DNA from: Lachnospiraceae bacterium
Lineage (GTDB): Bacteria > Bacillota > Clostridia > Lachnospirales > Lachnospiraceae
Direction of reading: 5' to 3'
Assembly: GCA_029006155.1 (NCBI GenBank)
Contig: JAQXGF010000143.1
Span: 1-38,292, forward strand
DNA length: 38,292 bases
Shown: one piece after another, positions 2-5,718 of the stretch
Position numbering within the stretch: the stretch's first letter is position 1
Layout: each line of letters opens with the position of its first letter
Notes under the pieces: generated by a model
Told to the model about the DNA's origin: nothing
Database searches by the model: none
The model's input: only the letters and a program-made list of their open reading frames with translations
Position numbers and translations under genes: made by a program

Positions 2-121
2 CAGATTCGGGCAGAAGTATTTTTTGCTGCTTTCGTACAAAACATCGAAAACAGTATAAAATCAAATGCTGTTGTAAAAGCCCTGAAGCGGCTTATTCAG
101 CAAAGGGGCACTCATTTATAA
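2..121 (+). CDS. 3' end of an unidentified gene (partial)
   Basis: An open frame enters from the left edge and ends at TAA 119-121, giving 39 residues. It contains a plausible amphipathic helical stretch (FFAAFVQNIENSIK) and a basic end (KALKRLIQQRG). The composition is protein-like, but the piece is too short to assign a family. It ends about 45 bases before the promoter of the radical SAM operon. It could be a chance open frame; the sequence to the left would settle this. Confidence 0.35.
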   Translation, partial: QIRAEVFFAAFVQNIENSIKSNAVVKALKRLIQQRGTHL

Positions 122-164
122 AAGTTGTAAACTGGTGTTACTGAAATAAATTTATGAAAAGCAC

Positions 165-193
165 TTGATTTTATCGAACATATGTACTATTAT
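165..193 (+). promoter_or_regulatory. Sigma-A promoter of the radical SAM operon
   Basis: TTGATT (165-170) and TATTAT (188-193) are separated by 17 bp. Transcription would start near 200. This rules out the TTG at 165 as a start codon and makes the ATG at 207 nearly leaderless, which favours translation from 237. A LexA-type palindrome lies between the two hexamers and another overlaps the likely start site. Confidence 0.7.
175..188. promoter_or_regulatory. LexA (SOS) box 1, imperfect
   Basis: CGAACATATGTACT matches the Gram-positive LexA/DinR consensus CGAACATATGTTCG at all but the last half-site bases. It fills the spacer between the -35 and -10 elements, so a bound repressor would occlude RNA polymerase. 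Confidence 0.6.
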
Positions 194-199
194 AAGGAA

Positions 200-213
200 A
201 GAACAAATGTTCG
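200..213. promoter_or_regulatory. LexA (SOS) box 2
   Basis: AGAACAAATGTTCG contains the full GAAC-N4-GTTC core of the Gram-positive LexA box. It lies at the predicted transcription start, 25 bp (centre to centre) downstream of box 1. Confidence 0.75.
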
Positions 214-236
214 GAAAAAGAAAGGAGTGCTCCGGC

Positions 237-1562
237 ATGCGCATTGACCAGCAGCGTACCCTCTATGAAAAGTTGAATATCCTCTCCGATGCGGCAAAGT
301 ACGATGTGGCCTGTACCTCAAGCGGGACAGATCGTGGTGGCAGCGGACAGGGCATGGGCAATTGCATTGCAGCCGGGATCTGCCATTCTTTTTCTGCAGA
401 CGGTCGTTGTATTTCCCTTTTGAAGATCCTCATGACGAACGATTGTGTATTTGACTGCCACTATTGTGTGAACCGCGTTTCGAATGACGTGGAGCGTGCG
501 ACCTTTACCCCAGATGAGATCTGCACGCTGACGATGGAGTTCTACCGGAGAAATTATATCGAGGGGCTTTTCTTAAGTTCTGGCGTACTTCGTACGCCGG
601 CCTATACGATGGAGCTTTTGTATGAGACACTGTTTCAGCTTCGTACTAGGCACCATTTTGAGGGCTATATTCATGTAAAGGTGATTCCGGGTGCGCCGCC
701 GGATCTGGTGGAACGGATCGGTTTTCTCGCAGACCGTGTCAGTGTGAATCTGGAGCTCCCTACCTCAGAGAGCCTCCGGCTGCTTGCACCTCACAAGACC
801 CGGAAGCGGATTCTCACCCCGATGCGGCAGGTGCAGGATACCCGTGCGCAGAATCAGCATGAGCTGGTGCAGTATCGCAGTGCGCCCCGCTTTGTCCCGG
901 CGGGTCAGAGCACGCAGATGATCATCGGCGCTACCCCGGAGAATGATCTTCAGATCATTTCTGTTGCGGAGTCTCTTTATCAGAAGTTTGCATTAAAGAG
1001 AGTCTTTTATTCGGCATTTGTTCAGGTAAATGAGGATCCGCTGCTGCCCGTACTCCCCGGCGGGCCGCCGCTTCTGCGTGAGCATCGACTGTATCAGGCG
1101 GACTGGCTGTTGCGTTTTTATGGTTTTTCTGCCTCGGAGCTTCTGAATGAGCGCCACCCGAATTTTAATGTCTTTCTCGATCCGAAGTGTGACTGGGCGC
1201 TTGCACATCTGGAGCAGTTTCCGGTGGAGGTATCCCGTGCCGATTATGCGACACTTCTGCGGGTGCCGGGGATTGGACCGAAGAGTGCGCAGCGGATCGT
1301 AAAAGCCCGCAGACAGGGGAAGCTCGATTTTACATCCCTGAAGCGCATGGGAGTCGTGCTGAAGCGGGCCGTTTATTTTATTACCTGCGAAGGACGACAG
1401 ATGTATCCGCTTCATATTGACGAGGACTTTATTTTGCACAACCTGCTTTCTTCGGAGAAGCGAGAACATACAACGGCTGGAGTCAGTTATCGACAGCTTT
1501 CGCTGTTTGATGATCAGGGATTTTCGGCAGAAGAAGCCGGGACAGTGCTGCACTTCGGATGA
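237..1562 (+). CDS. Putative DNA modification/repair radical SAM protein
   Basis: A 441-residue radical SAM enzyme of the family annotated as putative DNA modification/repair radical SAM protein. The cluster-binding motif C-x3-C-x2-C is at Cys70, Cys74 and Cys77 (NDCVFDCHYC). It follows a conserved N-terminal stretch (LNILSDAAKYDVAC) and a Gly-rich loop. A helix-hairpin-helix DNA-binding motif (LLRVPGIGPKSAQRI) lies at about residues 341-356. The ATG at 237 is chosen because AGGAG sits nine bases upstream and family members start shortly before the LxxLxDAAKYD motif; the earlier TTG 165 and ATG 207 lie in the promoter or operator. The next gene is this family's usual partner. The substrate and chemistry are not known to me. 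Two LexA boxes suggest induction by DNA damage. Confidence 0.88.
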   Translation: MRIDQQRTLYEKLNILSDAAKYDVACTSSGTDRGGSGQGMGNCIAAGICHSFSADGRCISLLKILMTNDCVFDCHYCVNRVSNDVERATFTPDEICTLTMEFYRRNYIEGLFLSSGVLRTPAYTMELLYETLFQLRTRHHFEGYIHVKVIPGAPPDLVERIGFLADRVSVNLELPTSESLRLLAPHKTRKRILTPMRQVQDTRAQNQHELVQYRSAPRFVPAGQSTQMIIGATPENDLQIISVAESLYQKFALKRVFYSAFVQVNEDPLLPVLPGGPPLLREHRLYQADWLLRFYGFSASELLNERHPNFNVFLDPKCDWALAHLEQFPVEVSRADYATLLRVPGIGPKSAQRIVKARRQGKLDFTSLKRMGVVLKRAVYFITCEGRQMYPLHIDEDFILHNLLSSEKREHTTAGVSYRQLSLFDDQGFSAEEAGTVLHFG

Positions 1563-1649
1563 GTCTGACCGCAGATATTAGCGAACGCAGATACGGATCA
1601 ATCCGGTAGCAGGTATTGGTAGGCAGGCATGAATGAGAAGGTGGGTACT

Positions 1650-2441
1650 ATGACAGTGTTTGAATGTGAAGATTCTTCGGACGGGATTTTTACCGGGATC
1701 TATGATGCGTGGGCCAGCCGCCTCGGCCATGCGAATGTCCGGTTGCAGTTGCAGGGCATGCATACGCTGGAGCTGTTTACGCAGTACCGGCAGGTGGTGC
1801 CGGATGCAGAAAAGGCGGAGAAGGTCGCACGCACGATCCGCCGGAAGATGGGAGAAGAGTCGTATCAGATCCTTTTTCGCGCGGCGATGGCGAAGTCCGA
1901 GGAGAAGGCAGACTGTATTTACCGCACGCTGGTTCAGGGACTGTCTTCGCGTATCAGCGAGAAGGAAGCAGCCGCAGTGCTGAATCAGCTGACAGATCCG
2001 GCGATCTGCAGGGTGTTTGAGCTCTCTCGCCGTGTCTGGCATGAGGCGCATCATTATATGGGATTTGTGCGTTTTGCCGAGTTGAAAACTGGCGTTTTGT
2101 TTTCTGAGATTGAGGCGGAGAATCAGGTGTTGCCGCTTCTGGCAGATCATTTTGCAGATCGGTTGCCGAATGAGGATTTTTTGATCTATGACCGGGCGCA
2201 TGACAGTTGCCTGTTGCATCGCCGACAGAGACCGTGCGTCCTTGTAAGAGATGCAGGACTGGATCGCGAGGACCGATCAGGTCTGTCCTTCTCTGAAAAA
2301 GAAGAGGAGATGCAGCAGCTCTGGCTTGGCTTTTGCCGCAGCATCTCGATCGAAGCGCGGGAGAATCCAGCCCTCCAGCAGCAGATGTTGCCGTTGCGCT
2401 TCCGGAAGTGGATGACGGAAGAGCGGAATTTTACTGCTTAG
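1650..2441 (+). CDS. Radical SAM-linked probable DNA metabolism protein (DUF4130 family)
   Basis: A 263-residue protein of the type that almost always follows the putative DNA-repair radical SAM protein (TIGR03915/DUF4130-like). Recognisable blocks are HHYMGFVRF, a following acidic segment (SEIEAENQVLPLL), HFADR and FLIYDRAHD, then a C-terminal block of the type W-x-F-x-x-x-I-x-I-x-x-R-x-N ending in MLPLRFRKWMTE. Its biochemical role is unknown; family association with radical SAM and uracil-DNA-glycosylase-like proteins points to nucleic acid repair or modification. It lies 87 bp after the radical SAM gene with no promoter visible between, so the two are probably cotranscribed under the LexA boxes. 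The ATG at 1650 is preferred over the in-frame ATG 1629 because GAAGGTGGG precedes it at a good distance. Confidence 0.85.
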   Translation: MTVFECEDSSDGIFTGIYDAWASRLGHANVRLQLQGMHTLELFTQYRQVVPDAEKAEKVARTIRRKMGEESYQILFRAAMAKSEEKADCIYRTLVQGLSSRISEKEAAAVLNQLTDPAICRVFELSRRVWHEAHHYMGFVRFAELKTGVLFSEIEAENQVLPLLADHFADRLPNEDFLIYDRAHDSCLLHRRQRPCVLVRDAGLDREDRSGLSFSEKEEEMQQLWLGFCRSISIEARENPALQQQMLPLRFRKWMTEERNFTA

Positions 2442-2746
2442 TGTACGGTATCATTTGCACTCAGAATGAATTTTTATTTCCGCGAGCAACGAGTCAAGTA
2501 GACCTGCCATCCCGCGGCTCATATCGTGATAAATGAGGATGCAGGAGAAGTGATTTTAAAATTTCTTTCAAACAGGCGAAATATCCGCGATAATTCCGGG
2601 ATTTCTGTGGAATCTGACGTTCACTCATTCGATTTTTTTAAGAAATAAATTTTTGGACTGGCAGCAAGAGCAAAAGAAAGGAAGCGAATTTAGATAATCT
2701 GACAAAAAATGCGGCAAATGTGTGAATTCCCTGAAAAATCCGTGAG
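2442..2746. other. Intergenic spacer without a recognised gene
   Basis: This is most of the 410 bp gap between the DUF4130-type gene and the HPr-like gene. It is A+T rich towards its end, including a T-tract near 2634-2640. I see no convincing coding frame, RNA gene or terminator. The promoter of the downstream gene starts at 2747. Confidence 0.6.
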
Positions 2747-2775
2747 TTGACGGATGCAAAGAGGTGTGAGATAAT
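2747..2775 (+). promoter_or_regulatory. Sigma-A promoter of the HPr-like gene
   Basis: TTGACG (2747-2752) and GATAAT (2770-2775) have a 17 bp spacer. The leader before the start codon at 2852 is about 70 bases. Confidence 0.75.
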
Positions 2776-2851
2776 ACGCGCGTCACAAGTAGGTCGGCTT
2801 TCTGACAGGGCATCGCAGAGAGTGCGGAGCATAATTGAAGGAGGATTTACT

Positions 2852-3103
2852 ATGTTAGAAAGAAAAATTCGCTTGAATGCTGTATCGGACGTGAAAGAGT
2901 TCGTAAAGGCAGCGGAGAAGTGCGAGTATGATGTGGATGTATTTTATAATCGGGTAGTGGTAGATGCAAAGTCTATTCTCGGTGTGATGAGTCTGGATCT
3001 TACGAAGCCACTCACGGTAAAATATTGTAAAGAAGATGGCGCGATCCTTGAGGAGACGCTGGATAAATTTGCAGATGTGCAGCCGAAGGGATCGGTAGCA
3101 TAA
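2852..3103 (+). CDS. HPr-like protein lacking the phosphocarrier histidine
   Basis: An 83-residue HPr-fold protein. The segment KSILGVMSLDL (residues 40-50) matches the KSIMGVMSL block of HPr, and Ser41 corresponds to the regulatory Ser46 phosphorylated by HPr kinase. The region that should carry the active-site His15 (around residues 9-16, NAVSDVKE) has no histidine, so it cannot act as a normal PTS phosphocarrier. This recalls Crh of Bacillus, which keeps Ser46 and lacks His15, and suggests a regulatory role in carbon catabolite control; that is inference. The start is set by GAAGGAGG seven bases upstream of the ATG. The gene is monocistronic, with its own promoter and terminator. Confidence 0.8.
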   Translation: MLERKIRLNAVSDVKEFVKAAEKCEYDVDVFYNRVVVDAKSILGVMSLDLTKPLTVKYCKEDGAILEETLDKFADVQPKGSVA

Positions 3104-3144
3104 GGATCCATTTGGAGCGTACAGGAGTTTAGAACAGCGAAGCG

Positions 3145-3216
3145 GGGCTGCGGTAGCCAAAGCATTCGGACGGAGTTTCAGATCCGTCCGGATCTTTGTA
3201 TACAGCAGCCCTTTTT
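3145..3216 (+). terminator. Rho-independent terminator after the HPr-like gene
   Basis: The outer stem GGGCTGC (3145-3151) / GCAGCCC (3205-3211) is followed by TTTTT (3212-3216). An inner stem CGGACGG (3167-3173) / CCGTCCG (3184-3190) stacks within it. Confidence 0.75.
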
Positions 3217-3268
3217 GTTTTACGGAAAAGCGGGATGGTATCCCTGCGTTTGTGGTCGGATGAGGCCA

Positions 3269-3298
3269 TTGCAGCGGATAAGCAAGGTATGTTATGAT
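3269..3298 (+). promoter_or_regulatory. Candidate promoter of the helicase gene
   Basis: TTGCAG (3269-3274) and TATGAT (3293-3298) have an 18 bp spacer. They lie just after the preceding terminator and about 50 bases before the start codon. Confidence 0.5.
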
Positions 3299-3348
3299 GA
3301 TACAAGGGTCAAAAGGCCATGCATAAGAAAAAAGAAAGCGGGGAGCGT

Positions 3349-5718
3349 ATGGGAGCGGAAGAAAAAGTCCTGAATATCAGAATTTCGGTGCGGGATCTGG
3401 TGGAGTTTATCCTGCGGTCCGGGGATATCGACAACCGCAAGGGTGGCGGGCTCGGTGAGAAAGAAGCCATGCAGGAGGGCGGCCGGATTCATCGGAAAAT
3501 TCAGGGCGGGATGGGCAGTGCCTACCGGGCAGAGGTTCCGCTTGGCATGACTCTTCTGGGTGATGGCTATACGCTGACCGTTGAGGGACGTGCAGACGGG
3601 ATTTTTACAGAATCAGAGGGCGTCTGGATCGATGAGATCAAGAGCATGTACCGGGATCTGGATACGTTAAAAGAAGCCATTCCGGTGCATCTGGCGCAGG
3701 CGAAATGCTATGCGTATATCTATGCGCTGCAGCACGATCTGGACGAGATCGGTGTACAGATGACTTACTGCAATCTGGAGACGGAGGATATCCGGCGCTT
3801 CCGGGAGCGGTTTTCGACCGGTGAGCTTTCGGCCTGGTTTCAGGAAGTGATAGATGCCTACCGGAAATGGGCGGAGTTTCAGCGGGACTGGAAGGAGATC
3901 CGAAGAGATTCGATTCGGGATCTGGCGTTTCCCTATCCGTGGCGGGATGGCCAGAAAAAGCTGGCGATGGATGTATATCGCACGATCCTCCGCAAAAAAA
4001 ATCTGTTTTTGCAGGCGCCGACCGGCACCGGAAAGACACTCTCGACGGTATATCCGTCGGTAAAAGCAGTCGGGGAAGGGCTGGCGGAGCGGATCTTTTA
4101 TGCGACGGCAAAGACGATCACCCGGACCGTAGCAGAAGAGGCGTTTTCGGTTCTGCGCGAACACGGGCTTCGCTTAAAGATACTGACCCTGACGGCGAAG
4201 GAAAAGGTCTGCCCGTGTGAGGAGACGGTGTGCAATCCGGATGCCTGCCCGCGGGCAAAGGGACATTTTGACCGGGTCAATGATGCGGTGTTTGAATTGT
4301 TGCAGGCGACGGATGCATTTGACCGGGATGTGATTTTGCAGCAGGCCGAAAAATGGGATGTCTGCCCGTTTGAGATGAGCCTGGATGTATCCTCATGGTG
4401 TGACGCGGTGATCTGTGACTATAATTATATTTTTGATCCGCGGGCAAAGCTGAAGCGTTTCTTTGCCGAGGGAAGGGGCGAGTATCTGTTTTTGATTGAT
4501 GAGGCGCACAATCTGGTCGACCGCGGGCGGGAAATGTTTTCCGCAACTCTATATAAGGAAGATTTTCTGGAAGCAAAGCGGGCAGTCAAGGAGCACAGCC
4601 GGAAGCTGACGCGTGCGCTGGAGCGCTGCAATGCTTGGCTTTTGGATCTGAAGCGGGACAGTCCGGAGATGAAGGTCCATGAGGATGTGGGGATCTTTCC
4701 GGTCTATCTGATGAATCTGTGCGGTGTGATCGAGGAAGTGCTGGAAAAGATCACAGATGCTGAGGCGGGCGAGCAGCTGCTCGACCTCTATTTTTCGGCG
4801 CGCAGTTTTTTAGAGGTCTGTGACAGGCTTGATGACAGCTACGTGATCTACTCGGAGCTGTGCGCAGATGGACGGTTTATGCTGAAGCTTTACTGTGTGG
4901 ACATCTCAGGAAATCTGCAGGAATGTATCAACAAAGGACGGAGCACGGTCTTTTTCTCTGCAACACTTCTGCCGGTGCAGTATTATAAATCGCTGCTGAG
5001 CACCGATCCGGAAAATTATGCGATCTGTGCGACCTCCACGTTTCGTCCGGAAAAGCGCCTGATCCTGCTCGGAACAGACACGAGCAGCCGGTACACCAGG
5101 CGCGGGGAGGAGGAATACCGGCGGATCGCGTCCTATATCAGCGAAGCGTTGCGGGCAAAGCGGGGGAATTATATGGTGTTCTTTTCTTCCTACCGGATGA
5201 TGGAGGAGACAGCGGAGGCGTTTACACAGCTTCTGGAGACGGAAGAAGTGCGTCCGCAGATGATTTTGCAGCAGCAGGGAATGACGGAGCAGGAGCGGGA
5301 GGCATTTCTCATTCGATTCGAGGAGACACCGCCGGAAGGGCTGATCGGCTTTTGCGTCATGGGAGGCATTTTCAGCGAGGGGATCGACCTGAAGGCAGAG
5401 CGGCTGATCGGTGCGATTGTGGTCGGACCGGGGCTCCCGCAGGTATGCCGGGAACGGGAACTTCTGAAGCATTTCTATGATGCGCGGGGCGAGGATGGAT
5501 TTTTCTATGCCTATCTCTGCCCTGGCATGAATAAAGTGCTGCAGTCGGCAGGGCGGGTGATCCGCACGGAGGAGGATGAGGGCGTCATTTTGCTGCTCGA
5601 TGAACGGTTTGCGGCCGCACGTTACCGGAACCTGTTTCCGGCAGAGTGGCAGGGAACCCAGACGTGTACTTTGCAGACGGTACAAAAGCGGTTGGCACAG
5701 TTCTGGAGTAAATCATGA
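3349..5718 (+). CDS. DinG/XPD-family iron-sulfur DNA helicase with N-terminal PD-(D/E)XK nuclease-like domain
   Basis: A 789-residue superfamily 2 helicase related to DinG and Rad3/XPD. Residues 1 to about 190 form a PD-(D/E)XK-type domain: VEGRAD near residue 80 and IDEIK near residues 94-98, with a later QAK motif. The helicase core has Walker A APTGTGKT (223-230), a four-cysteine 4Fe-4S module (Cys288, 290, 295 and 300, with Cys339 nearby), the DEAH box (384-387) and a C-terminal motif VI QSAGRVIRTEEDEG. Known relatives are 5'-3' DNA helicases in repair; the nuclease-like domain suggests end processing, which is inference. ATG 3349 is preferred over ATG 3319 because GGGGAG lies just upstream, though the spacing is short. 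The usual DinG exonuclease domain is absent. Confidence 0.88.
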   Translation: MGAEEKVLNIRISVRDLVEFILRSGDIDNRKGGGLGEKEAMQEGGRIHRKIQGGMGSAYRAEVPLGMTLLGDGYTLTVEGRADGIFTESEGVWIDEIKSMYRDLDTLKEAIPVHLAQAKCYAYIYALQHDLDEIGVQMTYCNLETEDIRRFRERFSTGELSAWFQEVIDAYRKWAEFQRDWKEIRRDSIRDLAFPYPWRDGQKKLAMDVYRTILRKKNLFLQAPTGTGKTLSTVYPSVKAVGEGLAERIFYATAKTITRTVAEEAFSVLREHGLRLKILTLTAKEKVCPCEETVCNPDACPRAKGHFDRVNDAVFELLQATDAFDRDVILQQAEKWDVCPFEMSLDVSSWCDAVICDYNYIFDPRAKLKRFFAEGRGEYLFLIDEAHNLVDRGREMFSATLYKEDFLEAKRAVKEHSRKLTRALERCNAWLLDLKRDSPEMKVHEDVGIFPVYLMNLCGVIEEVLEKITDAEAGEQLLDLYFSARSFLEVCDRLDDSYVIYSELCADGRFMLKLYCVDISGNLQECINKGRSTVFFSATLLPVQYYKSLLSTDPENYAICATSTFRPEKRLILLGTDTSSRYTRRGEEEYRRIASYISEALRAKRGNYMVFFSSYRMMEETAEAFTQLLETEEVRPQMILQQQGMTEQEREAFLIRFEETPPEGLIGFCVMGGIFSEGIDLKAERLIGAIVVGPGLPQVCRERELLKHFYDARGEDGFFYAYLCPGMNKVLQSAGRVIRTEEDEGVILLLDERFAAARYRNLFPAEWQGTQTCTLQTVQKRLAQFWSKS

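Follow-up and report, generated by a model that had tools for sequence, protein, structure and literature searches.

The window analysed here, a stretch of 38,292 nucleotides from a Lachnospiraceae bacterium (contig JAQXGF010000143.1 of assembly GCA_029006155.1), carries close to its left end a two-gene operon that encodes a radical-SAM protein with a helix-hairpin-helix (HhH) domain followed by a DUF4130 protein. A first-pass annotation, made from the sequence alone, had placed this pair behind two LexA-type palindromes, one between the -35 and -10 elements and the other at the transcription start, and had proposed direct SOS control. Motif and promoter scans returned the same arrangement, whose features are given below in window coordinates.

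165..170, + strand: -35 element TTGATT (promoter scan, 9/12 matches, 17-bp spacer)
175..188, + strand: LexA-type box 1, CGAACATATGTACT, inside the promoter spacer (motif scan)
188..193, + strand: -10 element TATTAT (promoter scan)
200..213, + strand: LexA-type box 2, AGAACAAATGTTCG, exact GAACN4GTTC at the expected transcription start
221..227, + strand: ribosome-binding site AAAGGAG (read from the sequence)
237..1562, + strand: TIGR03916 radical-SAM protein with an HhH domain, 441 aa (profile match)
312..410, + strand: codons of the conserved N-terminal Cys26 (312-314), Cys49 (381-383) and Cys58 (408-410), a possible second metal or iron-sulfur (Fe-S) site
444..467, + strand: radical-SAM cluster motif CX3CX2C (Cys70, Cys74, Cys77), in 190/190 aligned rows
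1224..1349, + strand: HhH DNA-binding domain (PF12836, residues 330-371)
1494..1508, + strand: C-terminal tail motif QLSLF (residues 420-424), predicted to bind the beta clamp (DnaN)
1650..2441 (alternative start 1629), + strand: TIGR03915/DUF4130 protein, 263 aa (profile match)

Box 1 lies within the -35/-10 spacer and contains the palindrome GAACATATGTAC with one mismatch (176-187), and box 2 starts 7 bp past the end of the -10 element and contains the exact palindrome GAACAAATGTTC (201-212), at a spacing of 25 bp; the full GAAC-N4-GTTC core claimed for the second box is thus an exact match. Over 2.9 kb the promoter scan picked out 5 promoter-like sites, where shuffled sequence gave 2.4. A gene start at 165 was rejected because this mechanically assigned TTG lies in the -35 element, and the likely start is the ATG at 237 with AAAGGAG upstream. 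The families named for the two genes were also recovered, both above their cut-offs: the first protein matches TIGR03916 (rSAM_link_UDG) with 688.9 bits (cut-off 343.5) over profile positions 2-415 of 415, and the second matches TIGR03915 with 231.6 bits (cut-off 112.25) and PF13566 with 161.5 bits (E 1.8e-47, cut-off 27).

LexA-type boxes in the genome and at orthologous loci

The bare motif is not rare in the source genome, an assembly of 150 contigs totalling 3.32 Mb. In the window 14.4 matches with one mismatch or none would be expected and 9 are present, and the whole genome holds 22 exact GAACN4GTTC sites, against 33 for a reversed control pattern. The case therefore rests on the placement of the boxes and on their conservation. 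The pattern RAACATWTGTWY, derived from the boxes observed in this work, has nine distinct sites in the 3.3 Mb genome, namely two before lexA, two at this operon, one before uvrB (identified by its UvrB_inter domain), one in a box cluster on contig C133 and three others; its raw counts (5 forward and 6 reverse) are barely above those of the control (4 and 5). The lexA gene has the boxes AAACATTTGTTT and AAACATATGTACG, 44 bp apart and flanking its -10 element, in the recA promoter CGAACGTAAGTTCG follows closely on the -10, and the core of box 1 is that of the lexA box AAACATATGTAC except for the first base. The boxes of the operon therefore match the LexA motif of their own genome, on which lexA, recA and uvrB agree.

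We then turned to orthologous loci. The radical-SAM gene scores above the protein family cut-off in 67 of the 120 genomes sampled from the same bacterial family, and a Caulobacter control genome also gave a TIGR03916 match. The upstream set comprised 67 regions (one genome gave two, and the window itself is included) from the 70 genomes with a match, leaving out three fragments (G063, G025 and G031:C8) and weak matches confined to the HhH domain. Of these regions, 65 contain a box with one mismatch or none, against 5.75 expected from dinucleotide shuffles, 33 an exact box (0.25 expected) and 55 two or more boxes (0.25 expected). Counts of two or more boxes, here and below, take in a few overlapping pairs, and all shuffle expectations ignore kinship among related sequences. 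Samples at the level of the class and phylum, with 67/196 and 65/299 genomes above the cut-off, were represented by their best-scoring 58 loci (L176 partly masked): here a box is found in 43 of 58 (3.8 expected) and two boxes in only 9 of 58 (0.15 expected). Two boxes are the rule in the bacterial family (55/67 regions) and the exception in these wider loci (9/58), which makes the double operator chiefly a feature of the former.

A third set consisted of the best 80 of at least 585 confirmed stretches from named records, in which Lachnospiraceae and other Clostridia make up most of the records closest by radical-SAM protein, and whose species may overlap with those of the other two sets. A box with at most one mismatch precedes the gene in 64 of these 80 loci, compared with 133 of 2,009 control windows taken from the same loci. 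In a more distant group, a box with one mismatch or none is present in 11 of the 13 loci with a DUF4130 neighbour and in 1 of the 6 without one (neighbours taken from the list of open reading frames, partly scanned). The first-pass annotation had named boxes missing before orthologues and unlike the organism's own LexA motif as the outcome that would speak against SOS control, and this is the opposite of what was found.

In other clades, for which we examined 12 of 158 plasmid-collection records and one of 10 phage-collection records, the gene can be preceded by different motifs. An exact GAACN7GAAC, which we take to be the alphaproteobacterial LexA motif, stands directly before the gene in 7/7 alphaproteobacterial loci (at each of which it arises in 0 to 1% of shuffles), and an exact CTGTN8ACAG, presumably the betaproteobacterial LexA motif, is found in 2/2 betaproteobacterial loci; a gut contig has two boxes of the Gram-positive type. 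Ten phage-labelled records carry the radical-SAM gene, and in one of them (MT835514.1) it comes with two boxes and, by eye, a DUF4130-like frame behind it; these records are probably bacterial DNA in phage bins.

Several loci weigh against a general LexA control of the pair. Among the 58 loci from the class and phylum samples, 15 have no box with one mismatch or fewer, and lexA is present in 13 of these 15 genomes (two are without it). By eye, two-mismatch boxes are in place in six of the 13 lexA-bearing genomes (G122, G260, G431, G581, G404 and G262), the cases of G540 and G511 are uncertain, masking hides G601, and no box is visible at G401, G123, G267 and G363. In G401, G267, G511 and G262 a one-mismatch box is missing from lexA as well, so other boxes may serve there. 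A box with at most one mismatch is likewise missing from 16 of the 80 named loci, and all three types of box are absent at the Gemmatirosa, Fusobacterium and Acinetobacter loci. The Fusobacterium record, which is about the size of a chromosome, gave no lexA match, and the Acinetobacter record gave five below the cut-off and none above it; the Gemmatirosa record is a plasmid, and nothing is therefore concluded from its missing box. Judged from these sequences, LexA-type control of the pair appears widespread, and its universality would go beyond the data.

The same scans brought out further LexA-type boxes in the source genome. Around positions 41683-41790 of C133 (L080, L356) three one-mismatch boxes precede a 141-aa open reading frame on the minus strand, a putative SOS gene, perhaps a division inhibitor, whose sole Pfam match is below the cut-off. 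Other boxes lie at C65:33200 (L354), C25:65351 (L353) and C145:43938 (L359), and a 467-aa frame beside the first of these has no Pfam match. In the window, a DinG/Rad3-like helicase gene lies behind the operon (3319-5718); it scores under the curated cut-off of each named NCBIfam helicase family, and the motif scan of the window found no LexA box near it.

The radical-SAM protein, its tail and its partner

The first protein has both the CX3CX2C motif and the barrel fold of the radical-SAM superfamily, and its PF04055 and PF12836 matches are just above their cut-offs. Its AF2 model has a mean pLDDT of 82.2, and the HhH region matches the ComEA-related solved structure 2duy with E 1.2e-6 (profile A1). 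In an alignment of 190 rows (189 distinct; L188, L189, L192 and L193 left out), Cys26, Cys49 and Cys58 are each conserved in 189 rows. These residues, which fall in a region predicted at low confidence, may form a second metal or Fe-S site; the Gemmatirosa protein, which has none of the three, weighs against this. The nearest fold to the model is that of lipoyl synthase, and SplB is absent from the 50 fold matches listed. Lipoyl synthase has an N-terminal auxiliary-cluster motif of the form CX4CX5C, and identity with this enzyme was rejected because the spacing here, C26-X22-C49-X8-C58, differs.

Some relatives sit in restriction-modification loci. These TIGR03916-like proteins are encoded at 2399-4367 (-) in L193 (311.9 bits, under the 343.5 cut-off), 1063-3032 (-) in L192 and 5-2017 (+) in L188. 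The radical-SAM gene adjoins a TdeIII-type restriction endonuclease (PF09520) in L193 (E 2.3e-98) and L192 (E 3.2e-98), and in L188 it sits after an N6/N4 DNA methylase. No SOS box was found before the L193 and L188 genes.

The C-terminal tail (residues 407-441) is predicted to be disordered (AF2 pLDDT <50) and contains QLSLF at residues 420-424. A published consensus for clamp-binding motifs is QL[S/D]LF, and the C-terminal QLSLF of Bacillus subtilis PolC, which binds DnaN with micromolar affinity, is identical to the window motif in all five residues (PMC12309361). The tail thus shows what characterises a beta-clamp client, namely flexible, exposed sequence with a motif of the QL[S/D]LF type. 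Gln420 is conserved in 190/190 aligned rows, and in the 14-member alignment A1 it is invariant within a QLSLF-like stretch that follows a linker variable in length and sequence. The pattern Q[LMIV]x[LMIFV][FWLMYI] is found in 166 of 179 unique tails, against 9.0 in shuffled tails; 11 of the 190 tails fell outside this count, their HhH pattern not being matched, and also show the motif. Within the same loci, it occurs in the last 60 residues of 73/77 radical-SAM frames (77 of 80 were kept after an overlap filter) against 9/221 other frames, and a strict form in 63/77 against 0/221. An earlier strict-motif count of 93/102, in which the window protein entered twice and seven loci had no frame by the pattern, is not relied on. 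Proteobacterial tails end in QLSLF, QLALF, QLSLL and QLSLGF, among other forms.

On the other side, the motif is a short sequence, and 13 of the 179 tails miss it, most of them with near forms and two (L143 and L252) with no recognisable one. TIGR03916-like proteins without a DUF4130 neighbour also carry the motif or near forms, and it is therefore not specific to the pair. Taken with its conservation, the tail nevertheless makes tethering of the radical-SAM protein to the clamp a likely prediction; our literature search found no paper that joins radical SAM and a clamp-binding motif.

The association with the second gene is close, a DUF4130 frame being present in 77 of the 80 named loci and lying no more than 300 bp downstream in 72 of them. 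A PIN-domain gene (1737-2147, -) lies between the two genes in L180, and a gap of about 0.9-1.2 kb separates them in L200, L253 and L272. The partner is annotated as a 'UdgX family uracil-DNA binding protein' in six proteobacterial plasmid loci, and both proteobacterial partners that were scanned (2/2) combine DUF4130 and UDG domains; the Acinetobacter and Fusobacterium partners have DUF4130 alone, as in the window.

The AF2 model of the window DUF4130 protein (pLDDT 92.5) is nearest to DHH/DHHA1 phosphoesterases (RecJ, NrnA/PAP phosphatase, Cdc45). These enzymes carry DHH and GGGH metal/substrate motifs, and among 67 DUF4130 members a DHH-like triplet occurs in one and GGGH/GGGR in none. Profile-profile comparison by hhalign gave E 0.074 for NrnA and 0.42 for RecJ-type frames, against 0.24 for an unrelated control, and thus no support for the link. 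Because the catalytic motifs are absent and the scores no better than this, we rejected the assignment of DUF4130 as a DHH phosphoesterase. No solved structure matches it by sequence at E 1 or below.

Earlier predictions, proposed mechanism and rivals

LexA control was predicted in 2013 for the CAC3343-CAC3344 operon of Clostridium acetobutylicum, whose products were described as a repair protein of the radical-SAM type and one whose function is unknown (PMC3828012). It resembles the window pair in annotation, by which alone the two were compared, and in its predicted LexA control; the account concerns one species, and its available text does not mention the double operator, the clamp motif, the second cysteine set or the partner fold (PMC3828012). 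SOS control of such a pair was therefore already predicted, and our regulatory claim is a confirmation and an extension. COG4277, which enters a second line of work, we take to be the TIGR03916 protein. SOS control has been predicted for two-gene UDG-COG4277 (COG1573-COG4277) operons in Bacteroidetes, with Verrucomicrobia and Alphaproteobacteria cited second-hand (PMC8565304). These operons join a UDG-family protein to COG4277, as in the radical-SAM/UdgX pairing of our six plasmid loci (PMC8565304), whereas the window partner has no UDG domain. The first-pass annotation had presented direct SOS control as tying an uncharacterised enzyme pair to DNA damage: the tie is supported by box conservation and by the agreement with lexA, recA and uvrB, and its novelty was overstated in view of these two earlier predictions (PMC3828012, PMC8565304).

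Other reports are more loosely related. The spore photoproduct lyase SplB is a radical-SAM DNA repair enzyme that is SOS-regulated in several species (PMC8565304), and what sets the window pair apart from it, by description, is the HhH domain and the clamp motif, together with the N-terminal cysteines and the DUF4130 partner. In Gram-positive bacteria and in Streptomyces, a 'radical SAM protein' of unstated family has been described as being under LexA control (PMC7739468, PMC9380542), and 'radical SAM' does not occur in the available text of an account of Clostridioides difficile LexA genes (PMC4234289). For DUF4130 an enzymatic role connected with mutagenesis has been predicted, together with a link to UDGs and to radical-SAM proteins resembling SplB; these might modify thymines (PMC3765255). 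Literature searches found no activity for the enzyme pair, nor any printed account of its clamp motif, of its second set of cysteines or of the DUF4130 fold.

We consider it very probable that LexA controls the operon. During normal growth LexA would sit on both boxes and block the promoter of the two genes, and DNA damage would remove it and allow the pair to be expressed. The QLSLF tail would then bind the DnaN sliding clamp and bring the enzyme to replication sites, where the HhH domain would grip the DNA and a 5'-deoxyadenosyl radical would repair or neutralise a damaged base. DUF4130, as the regular partner (with UdgX where the two are fused, in alpha- and betaproteobacteria), may handle the strand or the product. 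That the radical chemistry acts directly on DNA is the step we hold with least assurance, favouring it only somewhat, as the substrate could instead be protein or RNA; the explanation as a whole, in which the SOS response induces a radical-SAM repair enzyme that is tethered to the clamp and works with a DUF4130 partner, seems to us probable.

A bolder version of this explanation, which we put forward tentatively and regard as rather unlikely in its full detail, would make the pair an unrecognised SOS repair machine at the replication clamp. It would consist of a lipoyl-synthase-like enzyme with two metal sites (the second Fe-S cluster on Cys26, Cys49 and Cys58), anchored to DnaN through a tag of the PolC type and reversing a base lesion at the fork, and of a catalytically degenerate, RecJ/Cdc45-like DUF4130 protein that binds the strand and carries UdgX in alpha- and betaproteobacteria. 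Several clades would have recruited it to the SOS regulon, each through its own LexA motif.

Among the rivals, the one that survives best is that the radical-SAM enzyme modifies or marks bases near the fork during the SOS response, with DUF4130 or UdgX reading or removing the mark, and that no lesion is repaired. NCBIfam names the family 'DNA modification/repair', some relatives adjoin the TdeIII endonuclease and the N6/N4 methylase described above, and thymine modification has been suggested for DUF4130-linked proteins (PMC3765255). Control by SOS across clades whose LexA motifs differ, however, suits an emergency role better than routine marking, and the two restriction-linked relatives tested (L188, L193) have no boxes; we judge this reading improbable. 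Lower still we place a role in the damage response whose target is the replisome or some other protein, such as a polymerase or the clamp, instead of DNA, with the HhH domain and the clamp motif serving only to position it. The identity of the tail motif with that of PolC would fit such a role, as would the fold, which is nearest to lipoyl synthase, an enzyme that modifies a protein-bound group, but the HhH DNA-binding domain and the UDG fusion of the partner point to DNA. That the boxes arose by chance or serve another regulator, and that SOS control is absent, would accord with the lack of motif excess in the window and genome and is rejected as highly implausible in view of their conservation in the bacterial family and the named loci and their agreement with lexA, recA and uvrB.

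An SOS-induced radical-SAM repair enzyme with a DUF4130 partner would be a common possession of this bacterial family, in which 67 of 120 genomes have the radical-SAM gene above the cut-off. Predicted SOS control across clades with different LexA motifs suggests that the pair matters under DNA damage, and the clamp motif points to where the enzyme may act. If the reading is true, a repair enzyme tethered to the clamp would bring radical chemistry that is sensitive to oxygen to the replication fork.

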